A stretch of 64,000 nucleotides of DNA, taken from Seonamhaeicola aphaedonensis (GTDB lineage Bacteria > Bacteroidota > Bacteroidia > Flavobacteriales > Flavobacteriaceae). Under the pieces are notes generated by a model that did not search any database, was not told the DNA's origin, and saw only the letters and a program-made list of their open reading frames with translations. The DNA is taken from assembly GCF_003386195.1 (NCBI RefSeq), contig NZ_QRDX01000010.1, positions 1 through 64,000 of the forward strand. Direction: 5' to 3'. The position numbers were made by a program, and so were the translations under genes. Of the stretch, positions 5,592 to 22,625 are shown one piece after another; positions within the stretch are counted from its first letter, which is position 1, and each line of letters opens with the position of its first letter.

Positions 5592-5601
5592 ATTTTTTAT
5601 T

Positions 5602-6300: not shown

Positions 6301-6378
6301 GAAATGCTTATGCACTGCCTGTTTTTCGATGCCCCGAAAAACAACGAAAGGCTTCTTTTATTATAAAACCCCTTAAAA

Positions 6379-6390
6379 TTGTCTAGACAA
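6379..6390. promoter_or_regulatory. palindrome TTGTCTAGACAA (possible ParB or regulator site)
   Basis: A 12-bp perfect palindrome. Its half TTGTC recurs in TTGTCAAGAC (6075) and, inverted, in GTCTTGACAA (6181). Three related half-sites within 320 bp beside a parB gene could be a partition or regulatory site, but no binding evidence exists. Confidence 0.3.
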
Positions 6391-6497
6391 AATCCGGATG
6401 TCCCAGCATTACCCGGCAAAACCCCAAGATGGTTTTGCCGATAGTGCGGTCAAGGATATTCGGGTTTTGGCTTTCCGATTTCCTTTAAATCTTGTAA

Positions 6498-7058
6498 TCA
6501 GTGGAATAGACATTTTTGTTCTGTCTCTGGAGTTTCTAGTTTCTTTGGTTTATCGTTTTTCATGGATGCTTTTAATGCTTTGCGCCGTTTTTCATAGATC
6601 CAAAGTCTCAGTCGTTTTAATAAGACTTGTTCATAGTCCGATAGTGTTTTTGGTGCTATGCCTTCCATAGCTTCTATCATAGCTTTTTTCTTATTTTCAC
6701 TATTGAATTGCGTAGCATATTGCAGTCCGCACCAGGTATAGATATTGCACCATTCTGAGGACATAGGGGCTTCGAAGGTTCTTGGCATCATATAGGCCAC
6801 TGTTTCCGTAATGGATGCCATTTTCTCTCCTTTCATAAGGCATAGCATTCGGCTTATGGTGATTCTTTCCAATAAATCTTTTGGTATGGCATCTTGCCAT
6901 GCTGTATTGTATATGATAATTGGACTGGTTAGGGCATCCATGAATTCAAATACAAAATCAGATTTTGCTTTTTTGGTATTGGTTTTAATGTTTTTTTGAT
7001 TTTGAACAGGATCTATATCAAAACCAAAATCCAGTTGTAATAGTTTAGGGTTTTCCAT
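6498..7058 (-). CDS. conserved hypothetical protein of Bacteroidota mobile elements
   Basis: 186 residues, no family named. An N-terminal ~40 residues rich in Gln/Asn/Lys is followed by a compact helical region with Trp and Cys (SSEWCNIYTWCGLQY near residue 100) and a basic C-terminal tail. No signal peptide or membrane span. It lies 87 bp after parB on the same strand, with a terminator hairpin between them, so it probably has its own promoter. Its place between ssb and parB suggests a role in maintenance or replication of the element. That is inference only. Confidence 0.65.
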   Translation of the reverse strand: MENPKLLQLDFGFDIDPVQNQKNIKTNTKKAKSDFVFEFMDALTSPIIIYNTAWQDAIPKDLLERITISRMLCLMKGEKMASITETVAYMMPRTFEAPMSSEWCNIYTWCGLQYATQFNSENKKKAMIEAMEGIAPKTLSDYEQVLLKRLRLWIYEKRRKALKASMKNDKPKKLETPETEQKCLFH

Positions 7059-7102
7059 GATGGTATTTTTTAATTTTATTTAGAAATGTTTTTTAAATGA
7101 AA

Positions 7103-7131
7103 AAGAGGAATCCGTAAACTGGACTCCTCTT
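7103..7131 (-). terminator. predicted intrinsic terminator of parB
   Basis: Stem AAGAGGAATCC / GGACTCCTCTT (one mismatch) with a seven-base loop, followed on the minus strand by TTTTT. It begins 14 bp after the parB stop. Confidence 0.65.
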
Positions 7132-7145
7132 CGGTTAAACAGAGA

Positions 7146-8951
7146 TTACGCTTTGAGTGCTTTCACCTGTTTTTGAAGTTCGGCAATACGCGCTTCGAGG
7201 CGTTTCTCCCGTTTGCTTCGTGTTTCGGCATAAGCTTTCTCAATTTTTGCGATCTCTGTCCCATGGAAACCCTGCATGGCAGTGTAAAAAGAAATGTTCG
7301 TAAAGTTGTTTGTATGGTTGGCTTCTCCAAAGTGGACTTGCTTGGTCAGTACAAATCGAATGAGTTTATTGAACGTTTCCTTTTTGAAGTTCTTCTTGAA
7401 TCGTTTTACCAGGTTTTCCCGGCTCGTTATTAAAGACTTTCCATAGAAATCCTTAAAGTGCTGCTGCCTTTCGTAGTAGCCTATAGTATTCTCGTAAAGT
7501 GTAATGGTGAACGCTACCATTTCATCTATGGTAAGTGCCTTTTTTGAATGTATATAATCTGTTTCACGGATCATTGTGGCCACTTCTTCAAATTGCTTGT
7601 TGTTCTCGATCTCTTTTTTGCGAACTTCTTTGGAATTCAGCTTTGTAATCTGTTCTTCCGGTGTGCAATCTTCCATTTTTCTTTTTTCAAGGGGTACTGA
7701 ACACTCAGGGGATTCATTGTCTTCCTCTTTTTCAATTTTAACGAAGACCTTTTCAGTTTTGTAGGAGTCCGTATCAAAATAAAATCCTTTTATATACCCA
7801 TTTTCTTCGGCTGTATTAAATGCTTCCAATTCTGTATTGTATACTTTGATAGCTCCATCCAATTGCTTTTTAAGCTCTTCTTTGGTAAACTCTTTCCAGT
7901 AGTAATCTTCCTTAATACTTTTAGTGGTTGGCTTGGAAGGTCTTTTCAATAGGTCAATGTCATCTAAAAGATAGACCGTCAGTCCTTCTTTTTCCATTTG
8001 GGAAATTATGAGCTGATTACCTTCTTGGCCTGCAAAATGCCTTCTGATATCGGGAATCAAAATCCGGTTTTCTTTCTTGGCCCTTTTTATAAGGTTTAAA
8101 AGCACTTTCAGTTTTTTGGTTTCGTAACAGGCTGATTTTGTACAGATCATTTTGCCATCCCCGAACAGGTTGCCCTGGTTAATGGCATTGAACGGACATT
8201 GGATGCATGAACCGGCATTGGCAATCAGATCTTTATCCTCAACTTTAAAGGGAGCTTTGGACAGATCGTAGGTCTTATTGTCAACCATTCTTTTTAATTG
8301 GTTGCCATTAAATTCTTTTCCCATAATCTCAAGCATCATCTTTTGGTCTTCTGGTTCGAAAAGTGCCACTGCTACGCCCAATGAAATGGTCATTTCACCG
8401 TTTCTGACAAAGTGTTTGAATCCTTCTATCAGCCCTGATAATTTGATTCTTTGTCGCACAAAATTTTCGCCTCTCCCTAATCGTTGGGCAATCTCGGATG
8501 GCGTGTACTTTTCACTTAAAAATGCGATGGCTTCTGCTTCCTCGGTTGGCTCAACGTCCTGGCGCTGTAGGTTTTCAATGATTTGCAGTTCCAATACGTC
8601 ATTGTTTTCATATTTCCGAACTATTGCTGGAATGGTTCGTTTTCCTGCAATTTTGCTTGATCGGTATCTTCTTTCTCCCATAACGATTGTGTAGCCTTTA
8701 TCGGATTTCCTGACGGTGATGGGCTGTAGTACTCCAAACTCCTTTATACTATCAGCCAAACCCAGTAGTTTCAATTCATCATAAGATTTCCTTGGTTGAT
8801 TTGGATCGGGCTGGATTAGACCTAAATCCAAATTTTCAATCTTTAATTCAGTGCTTACCATTGTATTGGTAGCTTTTGGCTCTTCCTCGGGAACTGTTTG
8901 ACTTCTTCTTGCAGGCCTGTTCGTTACTGCATTACTTTTTGTTGTTTCCAT
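7146..8951 (-). CDS. parB: ParB-family partition/transcription protein
   Basis: About 601 residues from the ATG at 8951 (METTKSN). A TTG eight codons upstream is possible but less likely. The ParB N-terminal nuclease-like domain covers roughly residues 35-130, with GERRYRSSK and the ENLQRQDVEPTEEA box, followed by the helix-turn-helix (PSEIAQRLGRGENFVRQRI). The protein is twice the size of chromosomal ParB. After the DNA-binding part it has a Cys cluster (C-x2-C then C-x4-C, within AGSCIQCPFN and MICTKSACYE) that may bind a metal or Fe-S cluster, and it ends in a Lys/Glu coiled coil. No parA is adjacent. Large solitary ParB proteins are usual in Bacteroidota elements and may act in stability or as nucleases. 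Confidence 0.87.
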   Translation of the reverse strand: METTKSNAVTNRPARRSQTVPEEEPKATNTMVSTELKIENLDLGLIQPDPNQPRKSYDELKLLGLADSIKEFGVLQPITVRKSDKGYTIVMGERRYRSSKIAGKRTIPAIVRKYENNDVLELQIIENLQRQDVEPTEEAEAIAFLSEKYTPSEIAQRLGRGENFVRQRIKLSGLIEGFKHFVRNGEMTISLGVAVALFEPEDQKMMLEIMGKEFNGNQLKRMVDNKTYDLSKAPFKVEDKDLIANAGSCIQCPFNAINQGNLFGDGKMICTKSACYETKKLKVLLNLIKRAKKENRILIPDIRRHFAGQEGNQLIISQMEKEGLTVYLLDDIDLLKRPSKPTTKSIKEDYYWKEFTKEELKKQLDGAIKVYNTELEAFNTAEENGYIKGFYFDTDSYKTEKVFVKIEKEEDNESPECSVPLEKRKMEDCTPEEQITKLNSKEVRKKEIENNKQFEEVATMIRETDYIHSKKALTIDEMVAFTITLYENTIGYYERQQHFKDFYGKSLITSRENLVKRFKKNFKKETFNKLIRFVLTKQVHFGEANHTNNFTNISFYTAMQGFHGTEIAKIEKAYAETRSKREKRLEARIAELQKQVKALKA

Positions 8952-9215
8952 GATTAAATTTTTTGTGTTAAACAATATTTAAGCATGACATCAAACGGAA
9001 GTCAAAATTTTGGAGGGGAAAGGAAACGGAATAAATGAGCATGGGAGGTAGTGATGGCTTTATGCCGTCCCTTTTCCGAGAAATATTTTGCGAGTTTAAC
9101 TTTCGGGAATATTGGATGGAATATATTACATCTATCTAAGAAATTAAAGATAAATATATTTTAGTGGTTTCTATAAACACTTGAAAGTTCGCACTAATCA
9201 CATCGACAAAAAAGC
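8952..9215. other. intergenic region between divergent parB and the HTH gene
   Basis: 264 bp without a gene. It must hold the parB promoter (minus) and the promoter of the small HTH gene (plus). A TATATTTT stretch near 9155 could be part of the latter. It marks the border between element backbone and cargo. Confidence 0.4.
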
Positions 9216-9380
9216 ATGAATAAAAAAGAATACTGCACAAATAAAGAAACTGAGAAAGCCCTAAAAATTTCTTCTTGTGATTTAATGCATTTAAGAGTTA
9301 AAGGAGCTTTATCATTCACCAAAAAAGGAAACGCATTTTTATATAAAAAAGATGATATCGAAAAGTTAAAACAATCATAG
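9216..9380 (+). CDS. small MerR/excisionase-like helix-turn-helix protein
   Basis: 54 residues from ATG 9216 to TAG 9380. The pattern TNKETEKALKIS, then CDLMHLRVKGAL, then a hairpin (SFTKKGNAFLY) and KKDDIEKLK fits the winged-helix HTH_17/excisionase type: recognition helix, G-x-L/F wing, and a final D-[IL] helix. Such proteins act as excisionases or small transcription factors. It lies 50 bp upstream of the large GHKL ATPase gene on the same strand. A palindromic operator-like site sits between them, so a controller-protein role for the defence cassette is attractive. It is far from the integrase, which argues mildly against an excisionase role. Confidence 0.6.
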   Translation: MNKKEYCTNKETEKALKISSCDLMHLRVKGALSFTKKGNAFLYKKDDIEKLKQS

Positions 9381-9419
9381 TTGATGTAGGTTTTTTTTGA
9401 TAGATTTGTTAGTCCTAAC
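9381..9419 (+). promoter_or_regulatory. predicted promoter with overlapping palindromic operator for the 9431 gene
   Basis: A Bacteroidota-type -7 element TAGATTTG (TAnnTTTG) at 9401-9408 has a TTG at 9381, 20 bp upstream, as its -33 element. The inverted repeat GTTAG-TC-CTAAC (9408-9419) overlaps the end of the -7 box and the expected start of transcription. A repressor would be expected to bind there. The small HTH protein encoded just upstream is the obvious candidate. Confidence 0.5.
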
Positions 9420-9430
9420 TTTTTTGTGAG

Positions 9431-11905
9431 ATGAACAAATTGAAACCTAACGAAGTCTTCTTTAAATTATTTAACTCAAAAGACGAAACAGAACTTCAAT
9501 CATTTATTGATAAAAATCCAGAACTGTTTAAGCGTGATAATTGGAAACCATTAGGAGGTAATTTTAGTAATTATGGCGTTGTAAAAAACCAACAGTCAAA
9601 CCCTATTGCGGCACTAATTGAGAAGACTACCAACTCAATAGATGCGATTCTTACTAAAAAGTGTTTAGAAATGGGCACTAACCCAACAGATTCAGATGCT
9701 CCTCAATCAATGGATGAAGCCATTAATTTATTCTACCCAAATAATAATTGGGATTTACAGAAAAACAGACGTTCTCAAGCAGAAGAAATTCAGATCATCG
9801 CAGATGGTAATGGCCCTAGAAGCCAAAGGAAACAATACCCAACCTCAGTTATAATTTACGACAATGGTGAAGGGCAACACCCTGAAAAGTTTGAAGAAAC
9901 TTTCCTTTCTCTTTTAAGGGGAAATAAAAACAATGTCCATTTTGTTCAAGGTAAATATAATATGGGAGGGAGTGGGGCTATTGTCTTTTGTGGAAAAAAG
10001 AGATACCAACTTATAGCCTCCAAAAGGTTTGATAATACAGGTGATTTTGGTTTTACGTTAATAAGAGAACATCCAAAAACAGAAAATGATCAAGCTAAAG
10101 AGACTTGGTATGAATACTTACTTATAAGCAATAAAATACCTTCGTTTAAAATCGATAGTCTTGATTTAGGGTTGGAAAATAGAGTATTCAAAACGGGGAC
10201 TATAATAAAAATGTATTCGTACCAGTTTCCTAAAGGGTATTCTGGATTTGCTCAGGACTTAAATCAAAGTATTAATGAATTTCTTTTTAACCCTGCTCTT
10301 CCGATGTTAACTAAAGATACCATTGAAAGATATCCAAATAACAAGGTTTTATCGAATGATCTTTTTGGACTCAAGAGAAGGCTTCAAAAAGAAGAAGGAG
10401 ATTATATATCAGATCAGTTTTCTGAAACTTATGAAGATGAATTATTTGGAAAGATGAAAGTGTCATGCTTTGTTTTTAACGTTAAAGTCAAAGATTTTGA
10501 CTTAAAGAAAACTAAAGATGAAATAGGCAGAAGGTATTTTAAAAATGGTATGAATGTGATGTTCTCAATGAATGGTCAAGTTCATGGCTATTATACCTCT
10601 GAATTTATTACTAGATCTTTGAAATTAAATTTATTAAAGAATCATCTTTTAATTCACGTAGACTGTACAGAAATGAAGTATGAGTTTAGGAAAGAACTTT
10701 TTATGGCTTCAAGAGATAGGTTAAAGGATGGAGAAGAAACGCAGCAACTAAGACACTATTTAGCCTCGAAATTAAGCTCAAAAGATGGTAGATTAAATGA
10801 AATTCAGAAATTCAGAAAACAGGCTGTTAATGTTGATACATCAACAAACACCAATCAACTACTTAAAAACTTTACCAAAAACCTGCCTCTGAATTCAGAT
10901 TTAATGAAGTTACTCGGAGACACCTTTAAATTGGATTTAAAAAAAGAAACAAAGAACAATAAAAAGAAAAAGAAATCTGATTCCAAAAGGATTGAAACTC
11001 CATTTTTACCTCAAAGATTCCCATCTCAATTTAAAATAAATTCTAAAGCTAAAGGAGATACTGAAGTTGCAAAAATCCCCCTTAATGGAGAGAAAACTAT
11101 TCGTTTCAGCACTGACTGTGTAAACGATTATTTTGACCGAACTGATGAACCAGGAGAACTCAAAATAGCTGTTTTAAAAATAAAAGAAAACGAAACCAAA
11201 GGAGGTAATCAAGTTGGAGAACCAAAAGAAGTTAGCGAACTATTCAATGTCAACAAAAGCAGTCCGAATAAAGGAACTATAAGAGTTAACCTTAACCCTA
11301 AAGAAGAACTAAAGGTTAATGATGCTATTCAATTAAAAGTTTCTTTAACATCACCAAATGAAGATTTTGATGAAATTTTTTGGGTCAAAATATCTGATCC
11401 TGAAAAGAAAAAGGAAAAAACACCCAAAGATGAAGGTGATAATGAACCTTTAGGGTTACCAAAAATGGTTTTTGCCTATGAAAACAAAGAAGAAAAAGGT
11501 GAAAATGCAGTATCTTGGGAAGATGTTGAAGAAGCCACAGGTTTAGATATAGATTACAAAACTGTTATGGTTCCAGAGGCTGAGGGGGACAATCTAAATA
11601 GTATTTTCATTAATATGGATAGTACTGTTTTAAAGAATTTTAAATCAAAACACAATAATCCAAACGAAGAGCAAATAGAACTATCTAACAGAAAGTATTA
11701 CACTGCTGTATATTTCCACACACTATTCCTATATACCATTACAAAAAACAGAGGTTATCAAATCAATCAAAAGAACGAAAACACCAATCAATATGAGGAA
11801 GTAGATTTAGGGCAATATCTCAAAGATCTATTTGACCATTATTATTCTACTTTTATTTTGAATTTTGGTGGTATGGAAGAAATGATGCAAGGGTTGGCGG
11901 ATTAA
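9431..11905 (+). CDS. large GHKL-type ATPase, putative defence effector (SspFGH-like component)
   Basis: 824 residues. The N-terminal third is a GHKL (Hsp90/MORC/MutL-like) ATPase: N-box with E64, N68, D71 (IEKTTNSIDA), G1 box D144-N-G146-E-G148, and G2 box G174-KYNMGG-SG182. A middle transducer-like part follows. After a Lys-rich linker near residue 515, the C-terminal third is acidic and beta-rich without a recognised nuclease motif. ATP-driven dimer closure on DNA, as in MORC or MutL, is the family expectation. The gene is convergent with the five-gene sspB-like operon (52 bp between stops) and has its own promoter, so it may be expressed separately from the modification genes. It is placed in the same system by position only. 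Confidence 0.7.
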   Translation: MNKLKPNEVFFKLFNSKDETELQSFIDKNPELFKRDNWKPLGGNFSNYGVVKNQQSNPIAALIEKTTNSIDAILTKKCLEMGTNPTDSDAPQSMDEAINLFYPNNNWDLQKNRRSQAEEIQIIADGNGPRSQRKQYPTSVIIYDNGEGQHPEKFEETFLSLLRGNKNNVHFVQGKYNMGGSGAIVFCGKKRYQLIASKRFDNTGDFGFTLIREHPKTENDQAKETWYEYLLISNKIPSFKIDSLDLGLENRVFKTGTIIKMYSYQFPKGYSGFAQDLNQSINEFLFNPALPMLTKDTIERYPNNKVLSNDLFGLKRRLQKEEGDYISDQFSETYEDELFGKMKVSCFVFNVKVKDFDLKKTKDEIGRRYFKNGMNVMFSMNGQVHGYYTSEFITRSLKLNLLKNHLLIHVDCTEMKYEFRKELFMASRDRLKDGEETQQLRHYLASKLSSKDGRLNEIQKFRKQAVNVDTSTNTNQLLKNFTKNLPLNSDLMKLLGDTFKLDLKKETKNNKKKKKSDSKRIETPFLPQRFPSQFKINSKAKGDTEVAKIPLNGEKTIRFSTDCVNDYFDRTDEPGELKIAVLKIKENETKGGNQVGEPKEVSELFNVNKSSPNKGTIRVNLNPKEELKVNDAIQLKVSLTSPNEDFDEIFWVKISDPEKKKEKTPKDEGDNEPLGLPKMVFAYENKEEKGENAVSWEDVEEATGLDIDYKTVMVPEAEGDNLNSIFINMDSTVLKNFKSKHNNPNEEQIELSNRKYYTAVYFHTLFLYTITKNRGYQINQKNENTNQYEEVDLGQYLKDLFDHYYSTFILNFGGMEEMMQGLAD

Positions 11906-11957
11906 AAAAGCATATGACAAAATTACCTTTTTAGAGACTAATCAACTATATTTTAAA

Positions 11958-13121
11958 TCAATCTTTTTCTTCAGGAAGAAGCATTTTTACATAATGATGG
12001 GCTTCTCTAAACTCGGTTTCCGAAATTCCACCTCTTAAAACATAGGATGCATATTTTCTAACAACATCATTTGTGAGCTCATCACTTAGTGTTAATTCAA
12101 GTTCGTATAATTCTTTAAAGCTGTCTTCACTCATGGTAAAATTGGTCTTAAAATCAACTAATCCACCTGAAAACTGAGGTGTAGGTGGTAAAAACCTGTA
12201 TCTCTCACCAACTATTTGATGGTCAGTAATATTTTTTCTAAGTTTTTCTTCTCCTTTCCTACCTGTTAGATCCTTAAGGTTCTGTTCACTGATATCCTGA
12301 ACTTTACATAACAACAATTCATCATAATTTTTATGCCCAATATTGCATCTAGGGGTAAGTATTACGCAGCGATTATTTCCTTCTTTTGCTTTAAAAATAT
12401 CACCTGTCCAAAAATCAAAATCACTAGTTCTTCTGTAATAGTGTTCAATTGAATTCAATTGAACCTCTTTAATATTTCCATCTTCTAACTTAGAAGCACT
12501 CACTAAATTCTCAAAAACGGTTCTTAAGGCTATCCTTTCAAATACTTCGTGTGTTCTCCCTATTAAATTTTCAGGTTCGCACGATCTTTCAATAGAGTCT
12601 ATTATCCCTTCTATCTCTTTATCTTTAAATTGACTGACGAATGCACTATGAATTTCTTTCATTATCCGACTTTCTAATTCACCACCAAGGCAGAAAATAT
12701 TTAGAAAACCAGAGTCCTGCATTTTTTTTAAACTAGTCAAAATTCCTTCAATTGATTTTGCAGATTTAGGCGTTCTAAATACTGTACCCTTGTCTTTTAG
12801 GTCATTATAATGTTCCAGATTCCCGCTATGAATAAAAATCGGTATTCTGTTATGGTCAAACTCTGCTTGTATATATTCAGAAGCCCTATAAACTCTAGAG
12901 TCTTCTTCTATTGATGTATTAGACAAATCAATAATGAGGCCTCGAAGATTGTTTTCTTCCTTTGCCTTTTTTAAAGAAACCTCATATTCATTTGGTGTTT
13001 CACATTGCACCAAATGCAAATCAATTTCGTGATCTTCAAAGGCTATTGCAAAAGCATCTCTGATTGCTTTTTCATTCTCTAGTAAAATAATTACACCTTG
13101 ATTTTTTTTGCTTGTAGTCAT
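11958..13121 (-). CDS. receiver-like protein with a novel C-terminal domain, partner of the adjacent GHKL kinase-like protein
   Basis: 387 residues. The first ~125 residues look like a response-regulator receiver: E15/E17 in place of the acidic pair (ILLENEK), candidate phospho-Asp D65 after a hydrophobic strand (GLIID), a Ser at the Thr/Ser position (FIHSGN) and K119 (FRTPK). The remaining ~260 residues are not a known DNA-binding output domain. They contain a Cys/His-bearing stretch (VILTPRCNIGHK), and their function is unknown. The start lies two bases after the stop of the kinase-like gene, so the pair is coupled. It may act as the output of a phosphorelay or as a pseudo-receiver that docks on the partner. 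Confidence 0.6.
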   Translation of the reverse strand: MTTSKKNQGVIILLENEKAIRDAFAIAFEDHEIDLHLVQCETPNEYEVSLKKAKEENNLRGLIIDLSNTSIEEDSRVYRASEYIQAEFDHNRIPIFIHSGNLEHYNDLKDKGTVFRTPKSAKSIEGILTSLKKMQDSGFLNIFCLGGELESRIMKEIHSAFVSQFKDKEIEGIIDSIERSCEPENLIGRTHEVFERIALRTVFENLVSASKLEDGNIKEVQLNSIEHYYRRTSDFDFWTGDIFKAKEGNNRCVILTPRCNIGHKNYDELLLCKVQDISEQNLKDLTGRKGEEKLRKNITDHQIVGERYRFLPPTPQFSGGLVDFKTNFTMSEDSFKELYELELTLSDELTNDVVRKYASYVLRGGISETEFREAHHYVKMLLPEEKD

Positions 13122-13123
13122 AT

Positions 13124-15466
13124 TTAATTTGAAGATGATTGTTCTTTTTTAATATGGAATGCAGGTCCATAGCTTCTATTTTCTGCCCAAATCTTCCATT
13201 TATCGGATGATAACATATTCCTTGTGAATGCAAGACCAAGACCGGTCGCATTCTTTTCTTTCTTTGAGGTAATTCCGTATTCAAAAATTACTTCCAAATC
13301 ATCTTCCGGAATTTTAGGTCCCGTATTGCTAACTATGATTTCTTCATCATTTATTTCGAATACGATATATCTTTTCTCAACATTTTGAAGCCAATAGACT
13401 GCGTTATTGAGTATATTGAGAAATGAAATCCAAAATAAATACTCTAAGCCCTTGATTTCATAATCGAGGTTTTTGTTTTTAATTTCAAGTATAATATTTG
13501 AGTCTTCAAAAATCCGTTCAAATAAATGACAAACCTTTTTAAAGGTTTCAACTGGCTTAAAATTTTTCTTGGTTGATCTCCCAATCGCAGGTTGTAAAGA
13601 ATTTTTGAGTTCCTCAAGTAACGTAATAGCTCCCTGCATATTATCAATTCTTTTAGAGAAAAGCTGCTTTATCTTTTCATCTGGTAGCTTCACGGTGTTT
13701 TTGTGAAGTGATGATTTAACCGTTCCCAAAACAGACAGGGGTTGGGATAGTTCGTGGTACACAAGTTCTAAGCCTGTACCTAATGAGGCAAGACGTTGGG
13801 AAAATGATAAAGAATCCTCCATATTGTCCAAGGCATCATTAGTTTCAAGAACAAACTCTTTTGCCTTGGAAATAAGTTTTTCGTCTTGAGAATTACCTAA
13901 CACATATTGGATGAATTTTTCGGTATCAGGACGGTCTAATTTGTTTTTAGTCTTTCTTCCTAAATTATGTTTTAATCTATACTTTGCTCTTTCTCTTCCC
14001 GTTGTTTCTAAAACTCCAGCAATAATCTTTTTAAAGTTCATAAACTCTCTACTTTCGTAGAAACCTTCTCGGTTCGTTTTTTCCTTTAATCCATCATTCT
14101 GAGGTGAATAAAGAAAGATATTACCAATTATTTGATTTGGGCCAATCGTTACTATATGCTTTTGAACTCTTTTAGCTCCTAAGCCCATCCAGTCGTGTTC
14201 TTCCTCCCCATAAGGCTTAACACCAAAGCCATTTTTGGATATTCTCAGACCCAAATACTTGGTAAAAGTCGCTGATGCTTCTCTTCTTCCACTGGCATTT
14301 AATAGCTTAACCATTTTATCTTTGGCATCGAAATCTAAATCATATACCCTGATATCAAAGTAAAATTCGCCAACCCCAACTTTCTTTTGGTCTTTATTTT
14401 CATCCTCAATTTCGTCCAGCTTTCGAACATCTTTTTCTTCTTGGGATAAATTGAATGTTGAGGGTATTTCTAATGTTTTTTCGTAGCTATCTTCTGCAAA
14501 TCTATTGCACAGGTATTGAGCTTTAACACTTCCATCCTTAAATGCCTTTCCGAAAACTCTATAATCGAAGTGGTCTAAAATTTTGGAAGGTTCAATTTCT
14601 ATAAAACTTGTCTCTCCCTTTTTCTGGTCTTTTATAAAATTGATACCATAAAATAGTTCAAAAGTTCCTTCGCCATTATCAATTTTTAGCTTTTCATCAA
14701 TGATATCAATTTCTAAAAGCTCTTCTTGGATTTTGTTGTTTAGTTTTAGAGGTGTAATTAAATCCCTCAAAGACTTAAACATTGATGTTTGCTCCAAATC
14801 CAATACTTTAAATTCCTCCTCAATTAGGTTTCTCAAGGAACTGTCCACATCCTGAATTACTACTAATGTGCCCTCGTTAAATGAATTGAAGGGTTGATTT
14901 TTGAGTAAGTTGATAAGGTTTCCATTGATCTTTAGTTTTGATTCTTCTAAAATTTCTGTATCTCGAAATAATTCTTGATAATTTTCTATTTGCCCACCAG
15001 GAAAATCGACCAACTTTAGTAAAGATTCATTTCTAAAATTCTCCCTATCTATTCTTATCCAATTATATGCATTTTCATTATTCTGTTTTGAAATAACCGT
15101 TAGATGTCTTCCAAGAGCCATTGCAGCAAGCCGGCCTATCCCTTTAGAACCTAAAAACCTTCTATTATATATTGTGCTTCTACGTAAGCTTTGGTCTTCA
15201 TTTCTTTTACTACTCTTAGAGGGCTTTAACCAATCCCCAAAGAGAGTCCCCGAATCCATTCCCAATCCATTGTCCATCAAGAGAATAAAGTTCTTTTGAG
15301 GGTTCTTGTCATATTGTGTATAGACCCAACATTTACCAGCATCAGCATCATAACTGTTTTTAACTAATTCATTTACTGCCGTTGAAGGATGCCCTATAAG
15401 TTCTTCACCCATTTGGATGATGGACATTGCACCTGGTTCAAATTTATATTTGTTGAATTTATCCAT
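13124..15466 (-). CDS. double-GHKL ATPase with histidine-kinase-like C-terminus (putative defence sensor/effector)
   Basis: 780 residues with two separate ATPase folds. The N-terminal one is Hsp90/MORC-like: E33, N37, D40 (NELVKNSYDAD), D65-NG-LG69, and GSKGIGRLAA at 106-115. A central ~350-residue transducer region follows. The C-terminal 230 residues look like a sensor histidine kinase: H-box LVYHELSQPL with H571, N-box NILNNA (N687/N688), G1 box SNTGPKIPEDD with Asn714 where kinases usually have Asp, and G2 box TGLGLAFTRN. No membrane span, so it is cytosolic. It follows the SspD-like gene with no gap and precedes the receiver-like gene by two bases. The fusion suggests that an ATP-driven DNA clamp reports to a phosphorelay. 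Kinase activity is unproven. Confidence 0.68.
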   Translation of the reverse strand: MDKFNKYKFEPGAMSIIQMGEELIGHPSTAVNELVKNSYDADAGKCWVYTQYDKNPQKNFILLMDNGLGMDSGTLFGDWLKPSKSSKRNEDQSLRRSTIYNRRFLGSKGIGRLAAMALGRHLTVISKQNNENAYNWIRIDRENFRNESLLKLVDFPGGQIENYQELFRDTEILEESKLKINGNLINLLKNQPFNSFNEGTLVVIQDVDSSLRNLIEEEFKVLDLEQTSMFKSLRDLITPLKLNNKIQEELLEIDIIDEKLKIDNGEGTFELFYGINFIKDQKKGETSFIEIEPSKILDHFDYRVFGKAFKDGSVKAQYLCNRFAEDSYEKTLEIPSTFNLSQEEKDVRKLDEIEDENKDQKKVGVGEFYFDIRVYDLDFDAKDKMVKLLNASGRREASATFTKYLGLRISKNGFGVKPYGEEEHDWMGLGAKRVQKHIVTIGPNQIIGNIFLYSPQNDGLKEKTNREGFYESREFMNFKKIIAGVLETTGRERAKYRLKHNLGRKTKNKLDRPDTEKFIQYVLGNSQDEKLISKAKEFVLETNDALDNMEDSLSFSQRLASLGTGLELVYHELSQPLSVLGTVKSSLHKNTVKLPDEKIKQLFSKRIDNMQGAITLLEELKNSLQPAIGRSTKKNFKPVETFKKVCHLFERIFEDSNIILEIKNKNLDYEIKGLEYLFWISFLNILNNAVYWLQNVEKRYIVFEINDEEIIVSNTGPKIPEDDLEVIFEYGITSKKEKNATGLGLAFTRNMLSSDKWKIWAENRSYGPAFHIKKEQSSSN

Positions 15467-16606
15467 TTACAAAAAACAAGCGGTACAAGCATCACTTTCT
15501 GTATCATCTAAAATATCCAATAAAAATTTAGAGTTTTTAGATTTATGCTTATTTGTACGTTTTAAATGGTCTAATTTAATTTCTCTAATTCTTTTTGGAT
15601 CCATTAGCTCTTTTAAAGATTCATTAGGAATCCAAGTAAAATATTCATCCTCATTTTCATACTTCATAGCCTCTTTAAATCTTTCAGGGTGTTGTTCATA
15701 TAACCAAACCCACTCTATTTTTTGTTGAAAGAAACAAAAATAACAACCTGATCTACTTCTTGCATATTCACCTACTTGTCCATCAACTTCATATTTCACT
15801 TTATTGTAATAAGCTGGAACACCTACACCACTTTCTTCAAGTATTTTAAAAATATCAGCTCTTACCAAGTTGTCTTCATTTTCTAGCAAAGGATAATCGT
15901 CTTCCATTGATAAAGGATAATCAGTAGTTTTTAGATACTGAAAAATACTTTTGTTGTATTCCACAACTCCAAACTCAAGTAAAGCGTCAAGTTTCTCTTT
16001 TATAATTCGTTCTTTCTCTAATCTATAATTTCTATTAAATGGAATTGGTTTAGAAAAGACAGCTTCTATTTTATCTAATTTGCCCCCTTTTATATACTGA
16101 CTATAATAAGTCAATAATTGTTCATGATTTTCAGGGTTGAAGATTTTTTCTAATACATCTTGACTCCAGATATTTCTTCTAAATGGAAATATGGATTGAA
16201 TATTTTTTTCTCTTGATATATAACCCTCTCTTTGTTCATCACCTCTAATTCCAACATAAGAAACCGTTGGTTTTCCATTCACAAACTTCTCAAAAGGTTT
16301 TAGTTTCATTAATGCAGTACACCATCTTGCTTGTGGCGAAGGTAAATAACCTCTAAAAGATTTAAAATGAAAATCAAAAGGGTCTTCATTAGTACTTGAA
16401 ATTTTTTTGTCTTCAAGTCTATCAATATTTATTCCATATTGTCCCTCCAAAGCATCAATCAATTGATAGGTTTCATCTAGTTCTTTTCCCGTATCAGTAA
16501 AATAGTACTTTATATCGAGCATGGGGTATTTATCCTTTAGGTATATTGCCAATGCAGCACTATCTTTACCTCCTGATATCCCCAATACGTGTTGTAGTTT
16601 ACTCAT
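15467..16606 (-). CDS. sspD: PP-loop ATP pyrophosphatase/sulfur transferase, SspD/DndC-like
   Basis: 379 residues. The PP-loop S11-GGKDS16 sits near the N-terminus, as in PAPS reductases and DndC. C96 (RWCTALMK) and the pair C288-x-x-C291 (SGCYFCFF) fit the Fe-S cluster Cys set of DndC-type proteins. A further C374-x-x-C377 pair lies at the extreme C-terminus. Known relatives activate the DNA backbone with ATP and help replace a non-bridging oxygen by sulfur (phosphorothioation). It overlaps the upstream ATPase gene by eight bases. In isolation it could be a generic PAPS-reductase-like protein. The DUF4007 and ATPase neighbours make SspD the better reading. Confidence 0.72.
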   Translation of the reverse strand: MSKLQHVLGISGGKDSAALAIYLKDKYPMLDIKYYFTDTGKELDETYQLIDALEGQYGINIDRLEDKKISSTNEDPFDFHFKSFRGYLPSPQARWCTALMKLKPFEKFVNGKPTVSYVGIRGDEQREGYISREKNIQSIFPFRRNIWSQDVLEKIFNPENHEQLLTYYSQYIKGGKLDKIEAVFSKPIPFNRNYRLEKERIIKEKLDALLEFGVVEYNKSIFQYLKTTDYPLSMEDDYPLLENEDNLVRADIFKILEESGVGVPAYYNKVKYEVDGQVGEYARSRSGCYFCFFQQKIEWVWLYEQHPERFKEAMKYENEDEYFTWIPNESLKELMDPKRIREIKLDHLKRTNKHKSKNSKFLLDILDDTESDACTACFL

Positions 16607-19600
16607 TTAATTCCTTTTTCAATAATTCTGTTAAAACTGCAATTCTTAATTGTTTATCCCCTCCTAAGGTATTTTCTATTTTAGAAATTGATTTTTTAAC
16701 TTCTTCCTTTTGCCTCTTTGAGATACGTACTAAATGATTCTTCAACCCTTGATTTTGAGAAGTAAAATCTATTTTATAAATCTCTTCTTCACTTTCATCA
16801 AAGTTAACATTTTTTATATCACATAAGTTATCTAACTCTTTAATGATAAAACTTAGCTTCTCTTTTAAAACATCTTCATCTTTATCTGATACTCTATCTA
16901 GAGGTTTTGATAATAAAGAAAAACAAATAGAGTTCAACCAACTATCTCTGTCATCGAGTTCTGAATTGACTCTTAACATAAAGGTCTTTTGAGAAGGTAA
17001 AATTTGATGCTCTTTTAATGAATCATATCGTTTTTGCAACTGTACTTTATATTGGGGAAAATCACTCCTTATTCCTAAAACCTCAGTTGTCAAAAAGTTT
17101 TCAAAACGATTTAATAATTCCTTATAAGAGTCCCTTAATTCTATAATTGTTTTTTGAAACTTGATGATATACTCATCAAACAACTGCTCATTTTGAATTA
17201 GTTCTTTGACATTATACCCTAATGCTATGGGAAACTGTTCAAAAAATATCTTTTCTGGGTCTTCAGCATGGGAAATGGCACTTCTTAATTTCAATGCTTC
17301 TGGAGTTAACCTTTTTGTTTTCTTCGAATAATCAGTAAGGCTTTTATATAAAATCAAAAACGGTCTAACACTTTCAATAAAAGACTCATTTGACATTGAC
17401 GCTTGTTTATCCTGATTTAAATAAACTCTGTACTTATTAAATAAGTTTAATCTTAAATTATCAAGCTCGAATGATTTGACTGAGTATTCGTTTGGGTTTC
17501 TTGTAATTAGATATAGAATTGTTTCATTGATATAAGGCATATAACCGCCATCAACATTATAAAGTGCAAAATCACCTCGTCTTACGAATAAAAAAGTCGG
17601 TATTAAGAAATCAACTACGCCTTGTTTTAATTTATAAGGTTTTTGTTTTAAGATGGACATTAAATCGGTAATTGGCCTTTGCTCTTTTTTAGCCTCCTGT
17701 AAGAATGATTCACATTCTTGCCATACTCTAATAAAATTTTCGTCTTCTGAATTAGGGAAAGTAAGTATATAACTTCCATCCTCTTCTATATGAATTCCAT
17801 TATTTTTAATTAGACTCCAGTAAATCGTTTTATCTGACGGAAATTTATCATCAGGATAGCCTAAGTCCTTTTCCCCCCAATTATTTACTAATCTATTAAA
17901 ATACGATTTTCTTGCTGAGTTTATAGCGCCAGATACTTTATGCTTATTTATCAACTCCATATTGATTTTAGGAGTATGAGGATAAATAGATAAACAAATC
18001 TCAGAAAGTATTTTATTTAATTCTTGTTTACTTTTTATAACTCGTCTCTCTCCATTAAAGAACCATTCAATATTCTTAGAATACAAAGAGTGTAAAACGT
18101 AATGATTTAGTAACGCTTTTTGACTCTTAATAATAGTTTTTAATTCTATTTTGGCAAACCTATCATCTATATCAACCTCACTTAAAACTTTTTCTGTTTT
18201 CACAATATCCAATAGAGTCTTCCTTATCGTTGATGAGTTTTTATATAACCCATAGAGAATTGGTATATCTCTTTTCGAAGTCTTTTCAATGATATCTTTA
18301 CCAGTTAGCTTTTCATTAAAAATTAGGTTAATAAAGCCATCTATTTCATTAACAGGAGTTTCAAAAGAAGGGTTTTCACTAATATTAAATTTAAAAAGCC
18401 TTGGCGTTCCAGTAATATATAGTGTTTCCTTTGCTGTTAATATTGGAAAATCAAAAGCTTCGTTTAATCTGTAGACTATGTCAAGACCTTCATCAATACT
18501 ATCACTAGCTTTAAGTATAGCACTTTCAATATCCATATCAGTACCACCAAAAAGCTTATATGAATTATTAAAGCTATTGAATCTTATAATTTTTAGCTTC
18601 GTTAAACTCTTCAACGCTTTTTCAATAGCACTTGAATTGTATTTGAATGATAAGTAGTTTGTTAAAAACCAATCATCAATACTAGCACCCTTACTTGCAA
18701 ATAAATTAACTAGTCCGATGACTTTTAAAATATCCAATGACAAATTTTGATTTTCATCAACCTTTGTTTCAGCCCTTTCAATTGAACTTTTGATTAAAGC
18801 CCACTGTGTATAATCGGGATTATGCTTACTGACTAAAATTGAGTACAAGTTGACAAGTAAATAATCATAAAGTTTTGGTATATCAAATAACTCTCCGTCT
18901 TTCAAACTCTCTATTCCTAAATGATCAGAAGTATTTAAGAATGTAAATAAAGATCTTTCATTTTGACCATATCTTTGTAAAGAATAAGTCAATGTAATTG
19001 CTGAAAATATATCTAATGGAAATAGATTGTTTCCAATGTTATCTATAAACTCTTTTGAAATTGAAAAACAATTATTACTCTGATTTAATTTATTCAGGAC
19101 TTCATTATAGCTAATGTAATTTTTAGAAGCCTTGTATTTAGAGCCAAAATATTTTGATGCTAAAAAAAGTAGCTGTTCAATCGGTTCATTAAAAGTAATT
19201 TCGGAAAGTCTCCCTTTTACTTTTTTCCATTCGTTCTTTTGCGATTCCGATAAATCATTCGAATATGAGTCTATTGCTTGATGAACAGATGTTAATAAGA
19301 TTATATTTCTGCTAGAATCGTTAACAAACTCTGCAAGCTGTTGAATAAAGTACATCTCCCTTTCAGGATTATGCTGTGATGCATATTCCAAAAACTTACC
19401 AAATTCATCTATACAAATAACCAATAACCCATTTTGCTTCTTTACTTTCTCATATTGCTGGTAGATACAATCAAAAATCTCTTGATTTCCTTTAAGCTTA
19501 TTTTCAATAGAAAAATAGGTTTTAAAATAGGTTATCAGTGAATTGTGTTCTCCAACGACATTAATAAACTCACAATTTCTTAAAGCATTAGAATTGAAAT

Positions 19601-19829
19601 CAAAAAAATTATCTGTATTCGAATTAGAAATACTTCTGTTAAAAGCCCATAAAAATGAAGACTTACCTGTACCATATGACCCTATAAGATTAAAACTATG
19701 AACCCCTTTATCAAATTCATTCAATATAAAATTAGCAATACGTTTAGAATTACCGGTAGGAATATATTCGATAGACTTATCTTGGTCTCTAACTATATTT
19801 ATTGATGATAGCTGCTTTATGTTAGTCAT
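16599..19829 (-). CDS. sspC: large P-loop ATPase, SspC-like
   Basis: 1076 residues. Walker A G50-SYGTG-K56-S is followed by a Walker B strand ending in D141-E142 (LLVICIDEFGK) and a sensor-like TSVHQ, so the first ~200 residues are an AAA/STAND-like NTPase. The remaining ~850 residues are mostly helical with no recognised catalytic motif. SspC is described as the ATPase of the single-strand phosphorothioation complex. This protein sits in the SspC position between the DUF4007 and PP-loop genes and overlaps each by eight bases. By eye it is one of the most AT-rich genes in the window. Other ATPases of defence islands share this outline, so the name rests on context. Confidence 0.65.
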   Translation of the reverse strand: MTNIKQLSSINIVRDQDKSIEYIPTGNSKRIANFILNEFDKGVHSFNLIGSYGTGKSSFLWAFNRSISNSNTDNFFDFNSNALRNCEFINVVGEHNSLITYFKTYFSIENKLKGNQEIFDCIYQQYEKVKKQNGLLVICIDEFGKFLEYASQHNPEREMYFIQQLAEFVNDSSRNIILLTSVHQAIDSYSNDLSESQKNEWKKVKGRLSEITFNEPIEQLLFLASKYFGSKYKASKNYISYNEVLNKLNQSNNCFSISKEFIDNIGNNLFPLDIFSAITLTYSLQRYGQNERSLFTFLNTSDHLGIESLKDGELFDIPKLYDYLLVNLYSILVSKHNPDYTQWALIKSSIERAETKVDENQNLSLDILKVIGLVNLFASKGASIDDWFLTNYLSFKYNSSAIEKALKSLTKLKIIRFNSFNNSYKLFGGTDMDIESAILKASDSIDEGLDIVYRLNEAFDFPILTAKETLYITGTPRLFKFNISENPSFETPVNEIDGFINLIFNEKLTGKDIIEKTSKRDIPILYGLYKNSSTIRKTLLDIVKTEKVLSEVDIDDRFAKIELKTIIKSQKALLNHYVLHSLYSKNIEWFFNGERRVIKSKQELNKILSEICLSIYPHTPKINMELINKHKVSGAINSARKSYFNRLVNNWGEKDLGYPDDKFPSDKTIYWSLIKNNGIHIEEDGSYILTFPNSEDENFIRVWQECESFLQEAKKEQRPITDLMSILKQKPYKLKQGVVDFLIPTFLFVRRGDFALYNVDGGYMPYINETILYLITRNPNEYSVKSFELDNLRLNLFNKYRVYLNQDKQASMSNESFIESVRPFLILYKSLTDYSKKTKRLTPEALKLRSAISHAEDPEKIFFEQFPIALGYNVKELIQNEQLFDEYIIKFQKTIIELRDSYKELLNRFENFLTTEVLGIRSDFPQYKVQLQKRYDSLKEHQILPSQKTFMLRVNSELDDRDSWLNSICFSLLSKPLDRVSDKDEDVLKEKLSFIIKELDNLCDIKNVNFDESEEEIYKIDFTSQNQGLKNHLVRISKRQKEEVKKSISKIENTLGGDKQLRIAVLTELLKKELNE

Positions 19830-20670
19830 AATATTGGCTTAAAATGTCAAAAGAATTTGGTTTTACATTTTTAAATTGCAACTCTTTAATCCCTGAATCA
19901 TTAGAATATACAATATCATTGTATTTCTCTGAAATAAGTATAAGTTTTTTTTCAAGTTGTTCTTTTGAAAAGGCAAAAATATTACCTACACTATTATAAT
20001 CACTGTAAAGGTTTTTAAAGCTTATAGATTTACCATATCCATCATTTTCTAATATTATAAATAATATAAGTTCTATTGGGATGTCCTCTTGTCTATTGTT
20101 CTGAATAGTATATTTTGTAGAATTATTTCTCTTTATTTCTTGAACCAACTCAAGATCAGATAAAATTCCAGAAAAACTATCTTCTATATCTTTTTCGTTC
20201 TTTGAATGATATGTTCTTAAAAAGACTGAAAAATCTTTAGACAATGTGTTATGATTGAGACCAGAATCAATCCCATCTATATAAGTAATAAAGTTTTCTT
20301 TACTAAACTCAGGTTTTAGTTTTCTAAACTCATTGAATATTATTGAATAAATAGAAGAGTAATCATTTATAATTAATAGATAATGTAATAGCCAAAGTGA
20401 GGTTTCGTTCTCTAGATATTTATCTTTCCCGTGAATTTCATCAAATAAAAAGTTTGCTATTTTAGTTACTTTTTCATTTTCAGTATTAATAATGTTAAAC
20501 GCTTTTAACCAAAATCGTATTGAACTAACCATATTTCTTCCAACACCTAAATCGATACATGCTTGGTCTGTAAATTTCCCGTCAACTTTTACAAAATCGT
20601 ATCCTTTTTTCAACCACAACCCTTTACAATGGAAGGTTTCATGACCTGAAAACATTAATCTTTCACTCAT
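19822..20670 (-). CDS. sspB: DUF4007 protein, SspB-like DNA nickase of a phosphorothioation module
   Basis: 282 residues. The N-terminal motif F-S-G-H-E-T-F (residues 7-13) and the segment LGVGRNMVSSIRFW (41-54) are hallmarks of DUF4007. That domain defines SspB, the sequence-specific nicking subunit of SspABCD. The C-terminal half is variable. It is the first gene of the five-gene operon, starting at ATG 20670 after a 360-bp intergenic gap, and its last eight bases overlap the ATPase gene. Nothing upstream resembles the cysteine desulfurase SspA, which normally supplies sulfur and is often divergent from sspB. Confidence 0.72.
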   Translation of the reverse strand: MSERLMFSGHETFHCKGLWLKKGYDFVKVDGKFTDQACIDLGVGRNMVSSIRFWLKAFNIINTENEKVTKIANFLFDEIHGKDKYLENETSLWLLHYLLIINDYSSIYSIIFNEFRKLKPEFSKENFITYIDGIDSGLNHNTLSKDFSVFLRTYHSKNEKDIEDSFSGILSDLELVQEIKRNNSTKYTIQNNRQEDIPIELILFIILENDGYGKSISFKNLYSDYNSVGNIFAFSKEQLEKKLILISEKYNDIVYSNDSGIKELQFKNVKPNSFDILSQYYD

Positions 20671-21032: not shown

Positions 21033-22316
21033 CTACCTAACTATCTGCATAATGTTTATTTTCAAATTTGAGCCTCTTGGTTTATGTTGGTTTTGGACTT
21101 TCAAAGTCGTTTTAAGATTATTCATATCATTACTAATTTTATTCTCAACCACCTGAGCATAGATTTGGGTAGTAGCTATTTTAGTATGACCTAAAAGCTT
21201 TGACACCGTTTCAACAGGAACATTATTTGTTAATGTAATGGTAGTTGCAAAAGTGTGTCGTGCCATGTGGAAAGTGAGAGATTTAGAAATTTCGCACAAA
21301 TCGGCGATCTCTTTTAAATAACTATTCAATTTTTGATTCGACATGTGAGGGAACAATCTATTAGTATTTTCAGTTCTTGGATGCTCTTTATAGTTAATAA
21401 TTAATTTTTCAGCTTGTTCAAGAAGTGGAATCTTCACAGGAACTCCAGTTTTCTGTCTTTTAGTCTTAATCCATTTGTTTCCATCATCTCCCTTTACTAT
21501 GTTACCTTGTGATAGATTGATAACGTCGATATACGAAAGTCCGGTATAACAACTGAAAACAAACAAATCTCTTACAGTTGTTAACCTCTCAATTGAGGTA
21601 ATTAGTTCCTCAACTTTTTTAAGTTCTTGTTTAGTTAGAAATTCACGCTCCTTTTTCTCATACTTAAGTTTGAATTTGGTAAATGGGTCTCGTTGAATCC
21701 AATCCATTTCGTATGCAAGCCTAATCATTTTTTTTAGTCTTTGGATATGTTTCATTGCAACATTATTTCCGATTGTTCCTTGTGATGGTCTTGACCTATA
21801 TTTTCTTAGAAAACTTTCAAAACCTAAAACAAATTCATAATCCAGATTTTGCAGAAACATATTGTCTCGTTTATATTTTTCTTGAACATAAACTAAAAGA
21901 TACTTTTGTGTAGTAAGGAATTTACCGATTGTACAATCAGCTAAATTGTGAGTCATATTCTCATTATGATATTCAAAAATATCTAGTAGAGTATGGTTTT
22001 TTTTGTCCTCTCCTAAATACCTAGCTTTAACCAACTCGGCTGTTAGGACTCGATTTTCTGATTTTAAATCCCGATAACACTGAACAATGTCAGATTTGAT
22101 CTCATCTAGGTATTGATTCAGCTTATTTGCTTTAAGGCAGTTACCTTTCATTTTTTGACCTTTAGCATCCCATTTGTCAACATCAACCTTTTGTTTTAAA
22201 CTGATGTTGACCTTTTTACCATTAACTGAAATTCTAGCATAGATTCCAGTCTGATTGTTTTTTGCACGTTTTGCATAAATCCAGAAAAGGATTGAAAATG
22301 TTGTTGAAGTACGCAT
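21033..22316 (-). CDS. int: tyrosine recombinase (integrase) of the CTnDOT type
   Basis: About 427 residues from ATG 22316 (MRTSTTFSILFW, the usual N-terminus of the family). An in-frame ATG at 22343 would add nine residues. Arm-binding domain at about 1-90, SAM-like core-binding domain at about 100-205, catalytic domain after that. Visible catalytic residues are Lys in TKRQKTGVPV, HMARHTF (H-x-x-R), LLGHTKIATT and the nucleophile Tyr in TQIYAQV. In the first catalytic box the usual Arg is Ser (CYTGLSYID), the same departure reported for IntDOT. The gene reads away from tRNA-Asp, with its 5' end 236 bp from the tRNA 3' end, as expected for an integrase at an element end. Confidence 0.92.
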   Translation of the reverse strand: MRTSTTFSILFWIYAKRAKNNQTGIYARISVNGKKVNISLKQKVDVDKWDAKGQKMKGNCLKANKLNQYLDEIKSDIVQCYRDLKSENRVLTAELVKARYLGEDKKNHTLLDIFEYHNENMTHNLADCTIGKFLTTQKYLLVYVQEKYKRDNMFLQNLDYEFVLGFESFLRKYRSRPSQGTIGNNVAMKHIQRLKKMIRLAYEMDWIQRDPFTKFKLKYEKKEREFLTKQELKKVEELITSIERLTTVRDLFVFSCYTGLSYIDVINLSQGNIVKGDDGNKWIKTKRQKTGVPVKIPLLEQAEKLIINYKEHPRTENTNRLFPHMSNQKLNSYLKEIADLCEISKSLTFHMARHTFATTITLTNNVPVETVSKLLGHTKIATTQIYAQVVENKISNDMNNLKTTLKVQNQHKPRGSNLKINIMQIVR

Positions 22317-22551
22317 AGCTGTCGATTTTAGATTGTTAAACATTCTTTTAATCGAAAGTCAAATCAACTATATAAGGTAAATCGTCATAATCTTAGCTTT
22401 TTTTAACTATGTTGACAGTTTAAAAAAACTGTTGACGATTTGTGAACTATTAAAATAAAAAAAATTAATAAAACACAAAAGCCTAAAAACGACAAAACCC
22501 TGTTAATCATATAATTAATAGGGTTTTGATTTAAATTGATGTTCTTAAAAG
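22317..22551. other. element attachment region between integrase and tRNA-Asp
   Basis: AT-rich and non-coding. The att core should lie at or next to the tRNA 3' end (near 22,552-22,575), and arm-type integrase sites should lie between it and the int start. An imperfect repeat of the kind TTAAAAAAACT/TTGACNNTTT is visible around 22,395-22,440 (GTTGACAGTTT, GTTGACGATTT), which could be arm sites. The matching left att site is outside the window. Confidence 0.45.
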
Positions 22552-22625
22552 CGGTCTGGACGGGACTCGAACCCGCGACCCCCTGCGTGACAGGCAGATA
22601 TTCTAACCAACTGAACTACCAGACC
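22552..22625 (-). tRNA. tRNA-Asp (anticodon GTC)
   Basis: The minus strand gives a complete cloverleaf: acceptor GGTCTGG/CCAGACC, D-arm with AGTTGGTTAGA, anticodon stem CTGCC/GGCAG-like with loop CTGTCAC (anticodon GTC), and T-arm GCGGGTTCGAGTCCCGT. The discriminator is G and CCA is not encoded. The length of 74 fits tRNA-Asp. It serves as the insertion site of the mobile element. Confidence 0.97.

Follow-up and report, generated by a model that had tools for sequence, protein, structure and literature searches.

A putative two-component phosphorelay in the exchangeable slot between a conserved GHKL ATPase and the SspBCD genes of Seonamhaeicola aphaedonensis

Most of the described sspBCD modification sets (2,211 of 2,678) lack sspFGH as well as sspE, and further restriction partners have been suggested for them (PMC8092258; this and the other sources given by PMC number are cited from excerpts). 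The question of which output arm such an 'orphan' set could serve is raised by an island of Seonamhaeicola aphaedonensis, a member of the Flavobacteriaceae, that lies on a 64,000-nucleotide stretch of DNA (assembly GCF_003386195.1, contig NZ_QRDX01000010.1, positions 1 to 64,000; hereafter the window). An earlier note, made from the letters alone, had described six genes here, in which a phosphorothioation-type cassette resembling SspB, SspC and SspD was joined to a GHKL/receiver/GHKL triad. The cluster was recovered as described, with six intact open reading frames occupying 9431-20670, and the association is met in other genomes far more often than chance would allow. We interpret it, with moderate confidence, as a variant Ssp phosphorothioation (PT) defence island in which a cytosolic two-component phosphorelay would form the exchangeable output arm and the GHKL ATPase named GHKL1 the fixed partner. 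Its parts are the following (numbers with L label compared loci, those with G the genomes of a sample).

9431-11905, plus strand: GHKL1, GHKL ATPase, 824 aa (weak HATPase_c_3 match, Foldseek matches, Ssp linkage)
11906-15466, no strand: exchangeable slot between the GHKL1 and sspD stop codons (DNA-homology edges against L117, L150 and L129)
11958-13121, minus strand: RR, putative response regulator, 387 aa (receiver by model topology and Foldseek)
13124-15466, minus strand: HK, putative soluble histidine kinase, 780 aa (Pfam HATPase_c_3 8.4e-19 and HATPase_c 6.9e-11)
15467-16606, minus strand: SspD, PAPS-reductase-like sulfur transferase, 379 aa (Pfam PF01507, PAPS_reduct, 9.4e-12; PADLOC SspD 2.2e-91)
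16599-19829, minus strand: SspC, BrxC/ORC-type AAA+ ATPase, 1076 aa (PADLOC SspC E=0, 1444 bits)
19822-20670, minus strand: SspB, DUF4007 protein, predicted DNA-binding/nicking subunit, 282 aa (Pfam PF13182 8.2e-69; PADLOC SspB 1.8e-96)

SspB, SspC, SspD, HK and RR form one minus-strand run, with 8-bp overlaps between SspB and SspC and between SspC and SspD, no gap between SspD and HK and 2 bp between HK and RR, while GHKL1 is convergent and ends 52 bp from RR. According to the open reading frames, Pfam and PADLOC, SspB, SspC and SspD stand together in one operon, and on these family matches 15467-20670 is unambiguously assigned to the PT set SspBCD, whose identity the earlier note had read correctly. 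Its PT chemistry would follow from family membership. No cysteine desulfurase was seen inside the island; class-V aminotransferases gave ten matches genome-wide, three of them above 100 bits (506, 276 and 123), without IscS/SufS assignment. SspE itself (DUF262-HNH, i.e., GmrSD_N plus GmrSD_C) had no match among the nine window proteins scanned with Pfam and PADLOC.

The occurrence of GHKL1 in other genomes was examined with an alignment of five GHKL1 sequences (the other four being 54-57% identical to the window protein), scanned against one genome per species for 84,980 species. This census yielded 238 relatives, the best 80 of which were kept and, with two viral contigs, gave 82 loci. Ssp genes lay near GHKL1 in 71 of these 82, and where at least 9 kb of flank was present on both sides they were found in 51 of 53 loci, with all three of SspB, SspC and SspD in 45; the exceptions were L173, where a class-V aminotransferase-cluster gene adjoins GHKL1, and the viral L181, with a GHKL1 of 35% identity. 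The linkage spans Bacteroidota, Poribacteria, metagenome-assembled genomes of Gammaproteobacteria, and Alphaproteobacteria, and was kept, with a histidine kinase present, on Ensifer and Devosia plasmids with a GHKL1 of 44-45% identity. As an independent check, a sample of 395 genomes of the window's phylum (apparently one and the same for both scans) gave an SspC-like match in 24 genomes and a GHKL1 match in 11. SspC was present in all six carriers of a close GHKL1 (55-100% identity, including one truncated copy in G358) and in none of the five carriers of a distant one (22-38% identity). The hypergeometric probability was 2.7e-8 for the six close carriers (4.4e-7 without the window genome) under a close/distant split chosen after the data were seen, and 1.0e-5 for six of all 11 carriers (9.0e-5 for five of 10 without the window genome). 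For the distant relatives (Pontibacillus, Haladaptatus and the five sample genomes), no Ssp gene was found in the stretches examined. GHKL1 is a conserved Ssp partner.

In the structure model of GHKL1 (mean pLDDT 74.7, pTM 0.55), a topoisomerase/Hsp90-like ATPase module is joined to a C-terminal part that is Ig-like and helical. Its HATPase_c_3 score was 19.1 bits against a Pfam cut-off of 25, Foldseek returned topo IV (1.5e-8) and TRAP1 (4.3e-7) at whole-query TM-scores of only 0.2-0.3, and the ATP-site residues checked were invariant in 26/26 sequences, except G180 (25/26). Two observations on neighbouring distributions may be added. The 50-kb viral-labelled contig L180 carries, at 10001-12427, a GHKL1 of 47% identity with DndB- and GIY-YIG-like genes and no Ssp genes within the stretch examined, and SspBCD loci without GHKL1 in the phylum (L037, L038, L081, L083, L086, L040 and L084) have PbeA/PbeC-like or MzaB-like partners, some of these loci holding proteins that share defence-library matches with DUF262 proteins.

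What lies between GHKL1 and SspD was compared in the nearest relatives of the core, L117 (Confluentibacter) and L150 (Winogradskyella), both of which are without HK and RR. Identity to the window in L117 and L150, respectively, was 87 and 90% for GHKL1, 88 and 88% for SspD, 84 and 85% for SspC, and 85 and 81% for SspB. DNA similarity to these two loci and to the more distant L129 ends at 11905 or 11906 and restarts at 15465 or 15467, i.e., within 2 bp of the GHKL1 and sspD stop codons (within 3 bp for L101). Between these edges, a 211-aa protein accompanies members of clusters 20 and 16 in L117, whereas L150 pairs a DUF262-cluster protein with a HEPN protein, L129 DndB with a GIY-YIG-like protein, and L101 an AAA ATPase with an HNH protein. 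The stretch between the two stop codons is an exchangeable slot. Similarly, Aquimarina L135 and L144 share core DNA of 91-93% identity and hold a window-type HK-RR pair versus DUF262 plus HEPN, and Hymenobacter L145 and L142 hold SspE versus a Ser/Thr kinase plus DUF262. Since the L135 HK is 73% identical to that of the window (its RR 69%, over 65% covered) but its SspC only 39%, HK-RR moves independently of the core. Separately, an 89-column match (76%) was seen between window 9261-9347, upstream of GHKL1, and L117 12519-12605, just past the GHKL1 stop; this match could bear on the route of slot exchange.

Across the 80 census loci plus the window (81 rows, two-module rows being counted under both modules), the following modules were assigned, 12 of the 81 rows remaining without one. 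The names were assigned from the single member tested in each cluster; for SspE, all three were tested.

DndB plus GIY-YIG-like protein: 16 rows
DUF262 (GmrSD_N only) plus Ser/Thr kinase: 11 rows
GHKL 588-aa protein, mostly with a GIY-YIG protein: 10 rows
HK plus RR: 8 rows, window included
DUF262 plus SIR2: 7 rows
BrxD-like ATPase set: 7 rows
DndB-containing 715-778-aa protein: 4 rows
DUF262 plus HEPN: 3 rows
SspE: 3 rows (PADLOC, 3/3)

In two loci (L123 and L145), SspE is located between GHKL1 and SspD, and in L137 it adjoins these genes. The ~176-aa partner of DndB is presumably GIY-YIG-like, judged by reading its sequence; it had no Pfam match, and a GIY-YIG pattern was absent from all eight rows inspected out of 16. 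The 154-aa protein of L103 did match GIY-YIG (Pfam, 5.4e-5). A DGQ(Q/H)R motif was present in 20/23 DUF262-type proteins, 21/21 DndB proteins, 3/3 SspE proteins and 4/4 of the 715-778-aa proteins; SspE senses PT via its DUF262 GTPase, and the DGQQR motif belongs to the PT-stimulated GTPase (PMC13251355). Because HK-RR shares the slot with such known and predicted effectors, it stands in effector position. GHKL1 and SspD co-occur in 72 rows (71 loci plus the window) and are convergent in 48, with an assigned module between them in 46 of these 48. The earlier proposal of a restriction arm made up of the GHKL genes gains support from their place in common with effectors, whereas the triad did not hold up as one unit: GHKL1 goes with the conserved core, and HK plus RR are a separate swappable cassette.

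Two recurrent slot contents were noted. A gene of 975-976 aa, one cluster on the GHKL1 strand, directly follows GHKL1 in L116 (12466-15393), L124 (12491-15418) and L157 (12401-15331), whose slots differ in their modules; in L116 it encodes an NB-ARC/TPR STAND protein. Clusters 16, 20 and 28 form a recurrent slot set in seven loci (L117, L146, L157, L168, L169, L174 and L176), consisting of a 363-396-aa protein and a 365-592-aa protein, often with a 278-aa protein, without convincing family; the L169 copy of the 363-396-aa protein is weakly BrxD-like, and the L117 copy had no PADLOC match.

The window pair itself has the residues of a phosphorelay. HK carries an N-terminal HATPase_c_3 domain (aa 28-151) and a C-terminal HATPase_c domain (aa 683-764), with a DHp-like H-box between them that contains His571 (window 13754-13756), and a phospho-acceptor His followed by E/D aligned in 30/30 HK homologues. 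RR had no Pfam match. Its first ~136 residues model in the (beta-alpha)5 order of a receiver, for which Foldseek gave RcsB as best match (4.5e-4) and other PDB receivers at 1e-3 to 1e-2, and Asp65 (12927-12929) directly follows the third strand and is invariant in 7/7 aligned RRs. With a His-box kinase next to a receiver holding a phospho-acceptor Asp, HK-RR thus reads, on sequence and model, as a two-component pair. RR relatives are rare (3/394 other genomes), and no viral relatives of RR or HK were found. Over its full length the window RR is 25% identical to the RR of L042 and 23% to that of L043; the L042 RR has a C5-methyltransferase and Vsr as neighbours.

On a tree, the Ssp-linked HKs fall into three supported clades, i.e., the window type (three members), a second type (six) and a third type (five). 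Separate recruitment of these types to Ssp is not claimed, as one clade for all 14 Ssp HKs was tolerated (p 0.148); neither was one clade for the window and second types rejected (p 0.217). After the second-type HK come an RR and then another gene, 231-265 aa long, which belongs to a single cluster in five loci and is an unclustered 245-aa gene in L089. This cluster 26 gene, found in L115, L132, L159, L165 and L175, is a candidate effector; its L165 copy had no Pfam match. The third-type HK occurs in Ensifer, Devosia and three loci of the window's phylum, and is also the one in Acinetobacter baumannii L219. Its loci (L219 14980-19234; L192 4324-8699; L193 11533-16035; L092, L094 and L096) are all beside SspBCD and have a 632-687-aa gene nearby, with a receiver-like start in the three that were read by eye; the Acinetobacter partner gene had no sequence match to the other five.

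Histidine kinases near Ssp have been explained differently in Acinetobacter, where histidine kinase genes by SspE in 211 strains were taken to control SspE expression (PMC7464106). HK-RR could likewise be an ordinary regulator of ssp or GHKL1 expression. We consider this improbable, as no DNA-binding output domain was recognised in RR by family scans, the island would then be left without a separate effector (unless GHKL1 is one), and HK-RR shares its slot with SspE and with DUF262 plus HEPN.

If HK-RR is instead the output arm, SspBCD would place PT marks on host DNA, aided by a cysteine desulfurase whose gene would lie elsewhere in the genome. GHKL1 would probably dimerise and work like a clamp, on DNA or on the Ssp complex, to relay marked versus foreign status; being present with every arm type seen, it is the best candidate for a shared coupler driven by ATP. 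The slot would encode the output arm, which elsewhere would be SspE or a DUF262/DndB-type protein with a kinase, SIR2, HEPN or nuclease-like protein. In the window, the N-terminal GHKL part of HK would sense the signal, leading to phosphorylation of His571, the phosphate would pass from His571 to Asp65 of RR, whose C-terminal part is predicted to perform or trigger restriction or growth arrest. Such arms might run in two modes, with PT either protecting self (SspFGH-like) or licensing the arm (SspE-like). More broadly, and with somewhat less confidence, PT might be a general self signal, with one conserved GHKL ATPase linking it to effectors that plug in and are swapped between two stop codons, be it a nuclease, an NADase-like SIR2, a HEPN RNase, a Ser/Thr kinase or a His-Asp phosphorelay. 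If this is true, the window would hold a restriction system with output via a two-component phosphorelay.

A number of observations weigh against the output-arm interpretation. No fold could be recognised for the C-terminal half of RR (pLDDT <50), and no nuclease was recognised in GHKL1, HK or RR by Pfam, or in GHKL1 by Foldseek. SspBCD often occurs without GHKL1, a close GHKL1 being present in only five of 13 strong-SspC genomes (E <1e-140), one of them with a truncated copy, and the 80 census loci, as the best-scoring of 238, include near-duplicates (e.g., L103/L105 and L106/L107). GHKL1 and SspD are non-convergent in 24 of the 72 rows (e.g., L103-L110, L115 and Poribacteria), where the module sits elsewhere beside the core (an assigned module was within the stretch in 22 of the 24). 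Some rows have two modules (e.g., L162 and L165) and others extra genes (STAND in L116). The DGQQR motif is missing from the three DUF262-type proteins that accompany HEPN, and the one in L150 matches the defence proteins NsnA (4.2e-61) and PD-T4-2_A (1.4e-33), which are filed apart from Ssp; a single PT-reading logic for all modules is weakened by both. Finally, slot type needed at least 36 changes across 64 labelled loci on the GHKL1 tree, while shuffled slot labels needed 44.9 +/- 1.9 (minimum 39 of 300 shuffles). This tree has 76 rows, 12 of them unlabelled, enters two-module rows by their first label only, and omits L105, L107 and L109 (near-duplicates) as well as L129 and L168 (GHKL1 in two frames). 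Since the observed number is below every one of the 300 shuffles, slot type is partly inherited and random turnover is ruled out; slot turnover is fast, not random. Part of the slot variation may stem from independent defence genes landing in a hotspot.

Several of these points would also suit an alternative in which restriction is driven by GHKL1 itself, paired with SspBCD, and the slot merely gathers accessory or self-sufficient defence genes at a permissive site flanked by two convergent genes. In line with this, no gene apart from SspBCD is as constant as GHKL1, modules travel separately from the core, some rows have two modules or a STAND gene, and the DUF262 protein of L150 matches NsnA and PD-T4-2_A. 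Nevertheless, we hold it to be unlikely, although deserving of attention: no nuclease could be recognised in GHKL1, several of the slot families (SspE, DndB, DGQQR-bearing DUF262) have a link to PT, unlike a random sample of defence genes, and most labelled rows (63 of 69) carry a single recognised module type.

The surroundings of the island suggest how it travels.

1230-2813, minus strand: type IV coupling protein (Pfam PF02534, 3.4e-15)
2825-3844, minus strand: DUF5712 protein (Pfam PF18976, 3.7e-105)
21033-22343, minus strand: tyrosine recombinase/integrase (Pfam PF00589, 3.3e-18)
22551-22625, minus strand: tRNA-Asp, probable integration target, 3' end towards the integrase (ARAGORN)

By these genes, the island looks like one carried by a mobile element, the DUF5712 protein being what we take to be a mobilisation protein. 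Coupling-protein and DUF5712 genes also lie near GHKL1 in L115, L116 and L170, with coupling proteins of 66-67% identity. Window 1230-8975 appears as the left arm of the element, comprising the coupling protein, the DUF5712 protein and a ParB/Noc-like 609-aa protein. No attachment repeat of the tRNA-Asp was found in the window, and elsewhere in the genome only one site with two mismatches; the window start is the contig start, so that the element may be cut and its far end may sit on another contig. This mobile look, together with the occurrence of HK-RR pairs beside C5-methyltransferases as well, could mean that the genes have no functional link and are mere neighbours in a mobile defence island. 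That is very improbable given the GHKL1-Ssp linkage across such distant lineages, the 0-2 bp spacing of sspD, HK and RR, and the sharp slot boundaries.

No account of GHKL1 as an Ssp partner, or of the slot, was found in searches of the open-licence PubMed Central literature. A 2025 review lists three PT restriction branches, namely dndFGH/sspFGH, sspE and pbeABCD (PMC12707154), and our data point to a further branch, in which a conserved GHKL ATPase is accompanied by a recognisable effector slot. For GHKL1-type loci, the question of the 'orphan' sspBCD sets thereby becomes directly testable. Moreover, a rule for finding candidate PT-coupled effectors follows, i.e., where ghkl1 and sspD converge, the genes between their stop codons should be inspected; some of these candidates would act by killing or arresting the cell instead of cutting DNA.

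Among known systems, SspABCD-SspE shares orthologous SspB, SspC and SspD with the window, and SspE itself occurs in the GHKL1 loci named above; unlike that system, the window has no SspE, and GHKL1 and HK-RR are outside the system as described in the excerpted sources. SspABCD-SspFGH has the modification set in common. However, SspF carries a Walker A motif and SspH is FtsK-like (PMC8092258), versus GHKL and receiver proteins in the window. The earlier note had left the choice between SspFGH and a new relative; SspFGH is rejected on domain content (no Walker A or FtsK match in GHKL1, HK or RR, a judgement with no direct alignment to SspF, SspG or SspH behind it), and a new relative is what fits.

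The HEF_HK/Response_reg_2 two-component-like pairs, which adjoin type II restriction-modification systems, resemble HK-RR in having a soluble HK with N-terminal HATPase_c_3 beside an RR with a conserved Asp (PMC8011034), but the window partner is SspBCD, not a methyltransferase. The setting of the L042 RR, with its C5-methyltransferase and Vsr, is of the kind reported for these pairs (PMC8011034). Window HK and RR had no match to PF19191 and PF19192; the PF19191 model was also silent in 10/10 similar-HK genomes and 14 controls, its reach being unproven. MORC/paraMORC ATPases of restriction-modification systems (PMC2292703) likewise present a GHKL module in a restriction context. With regard to their GHKL plus S5 architecture, the HK N-terminus carries its HATPase_c_3 match, whereas GHKL1 stays below that cut-off, has topo IV/Hsp90 matches with low TM-scores and differs by its Ig-like C-terminal part; moreover, the seven distant GHKL1 relatives examined are not Ssp-linked. 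The Acinetobacter loci are alike in having an HK beside SspBCD (PMC7464106, PMC12421847), which was described as part of a two-component system and as a hint of a new Ssp variant (PMC12421847). On the A. baumannii plasmid L219, HK and a 637-aa protein (receiver-like start, read by eye) lie convergent after sspD. This HK is only distantly similar to that of the window (55-57 bits), and none of the eight plasmid records that gave a GHKL1 match comes from Acinetobacter. While a histidine kinase near Ssp was therefore already known from Acinetobacter (PMC7464106, PMC12421847), GHKL1 as an Ssp partner and the slot that it delimits together with sspD appear, by the literature searched, to be new here.

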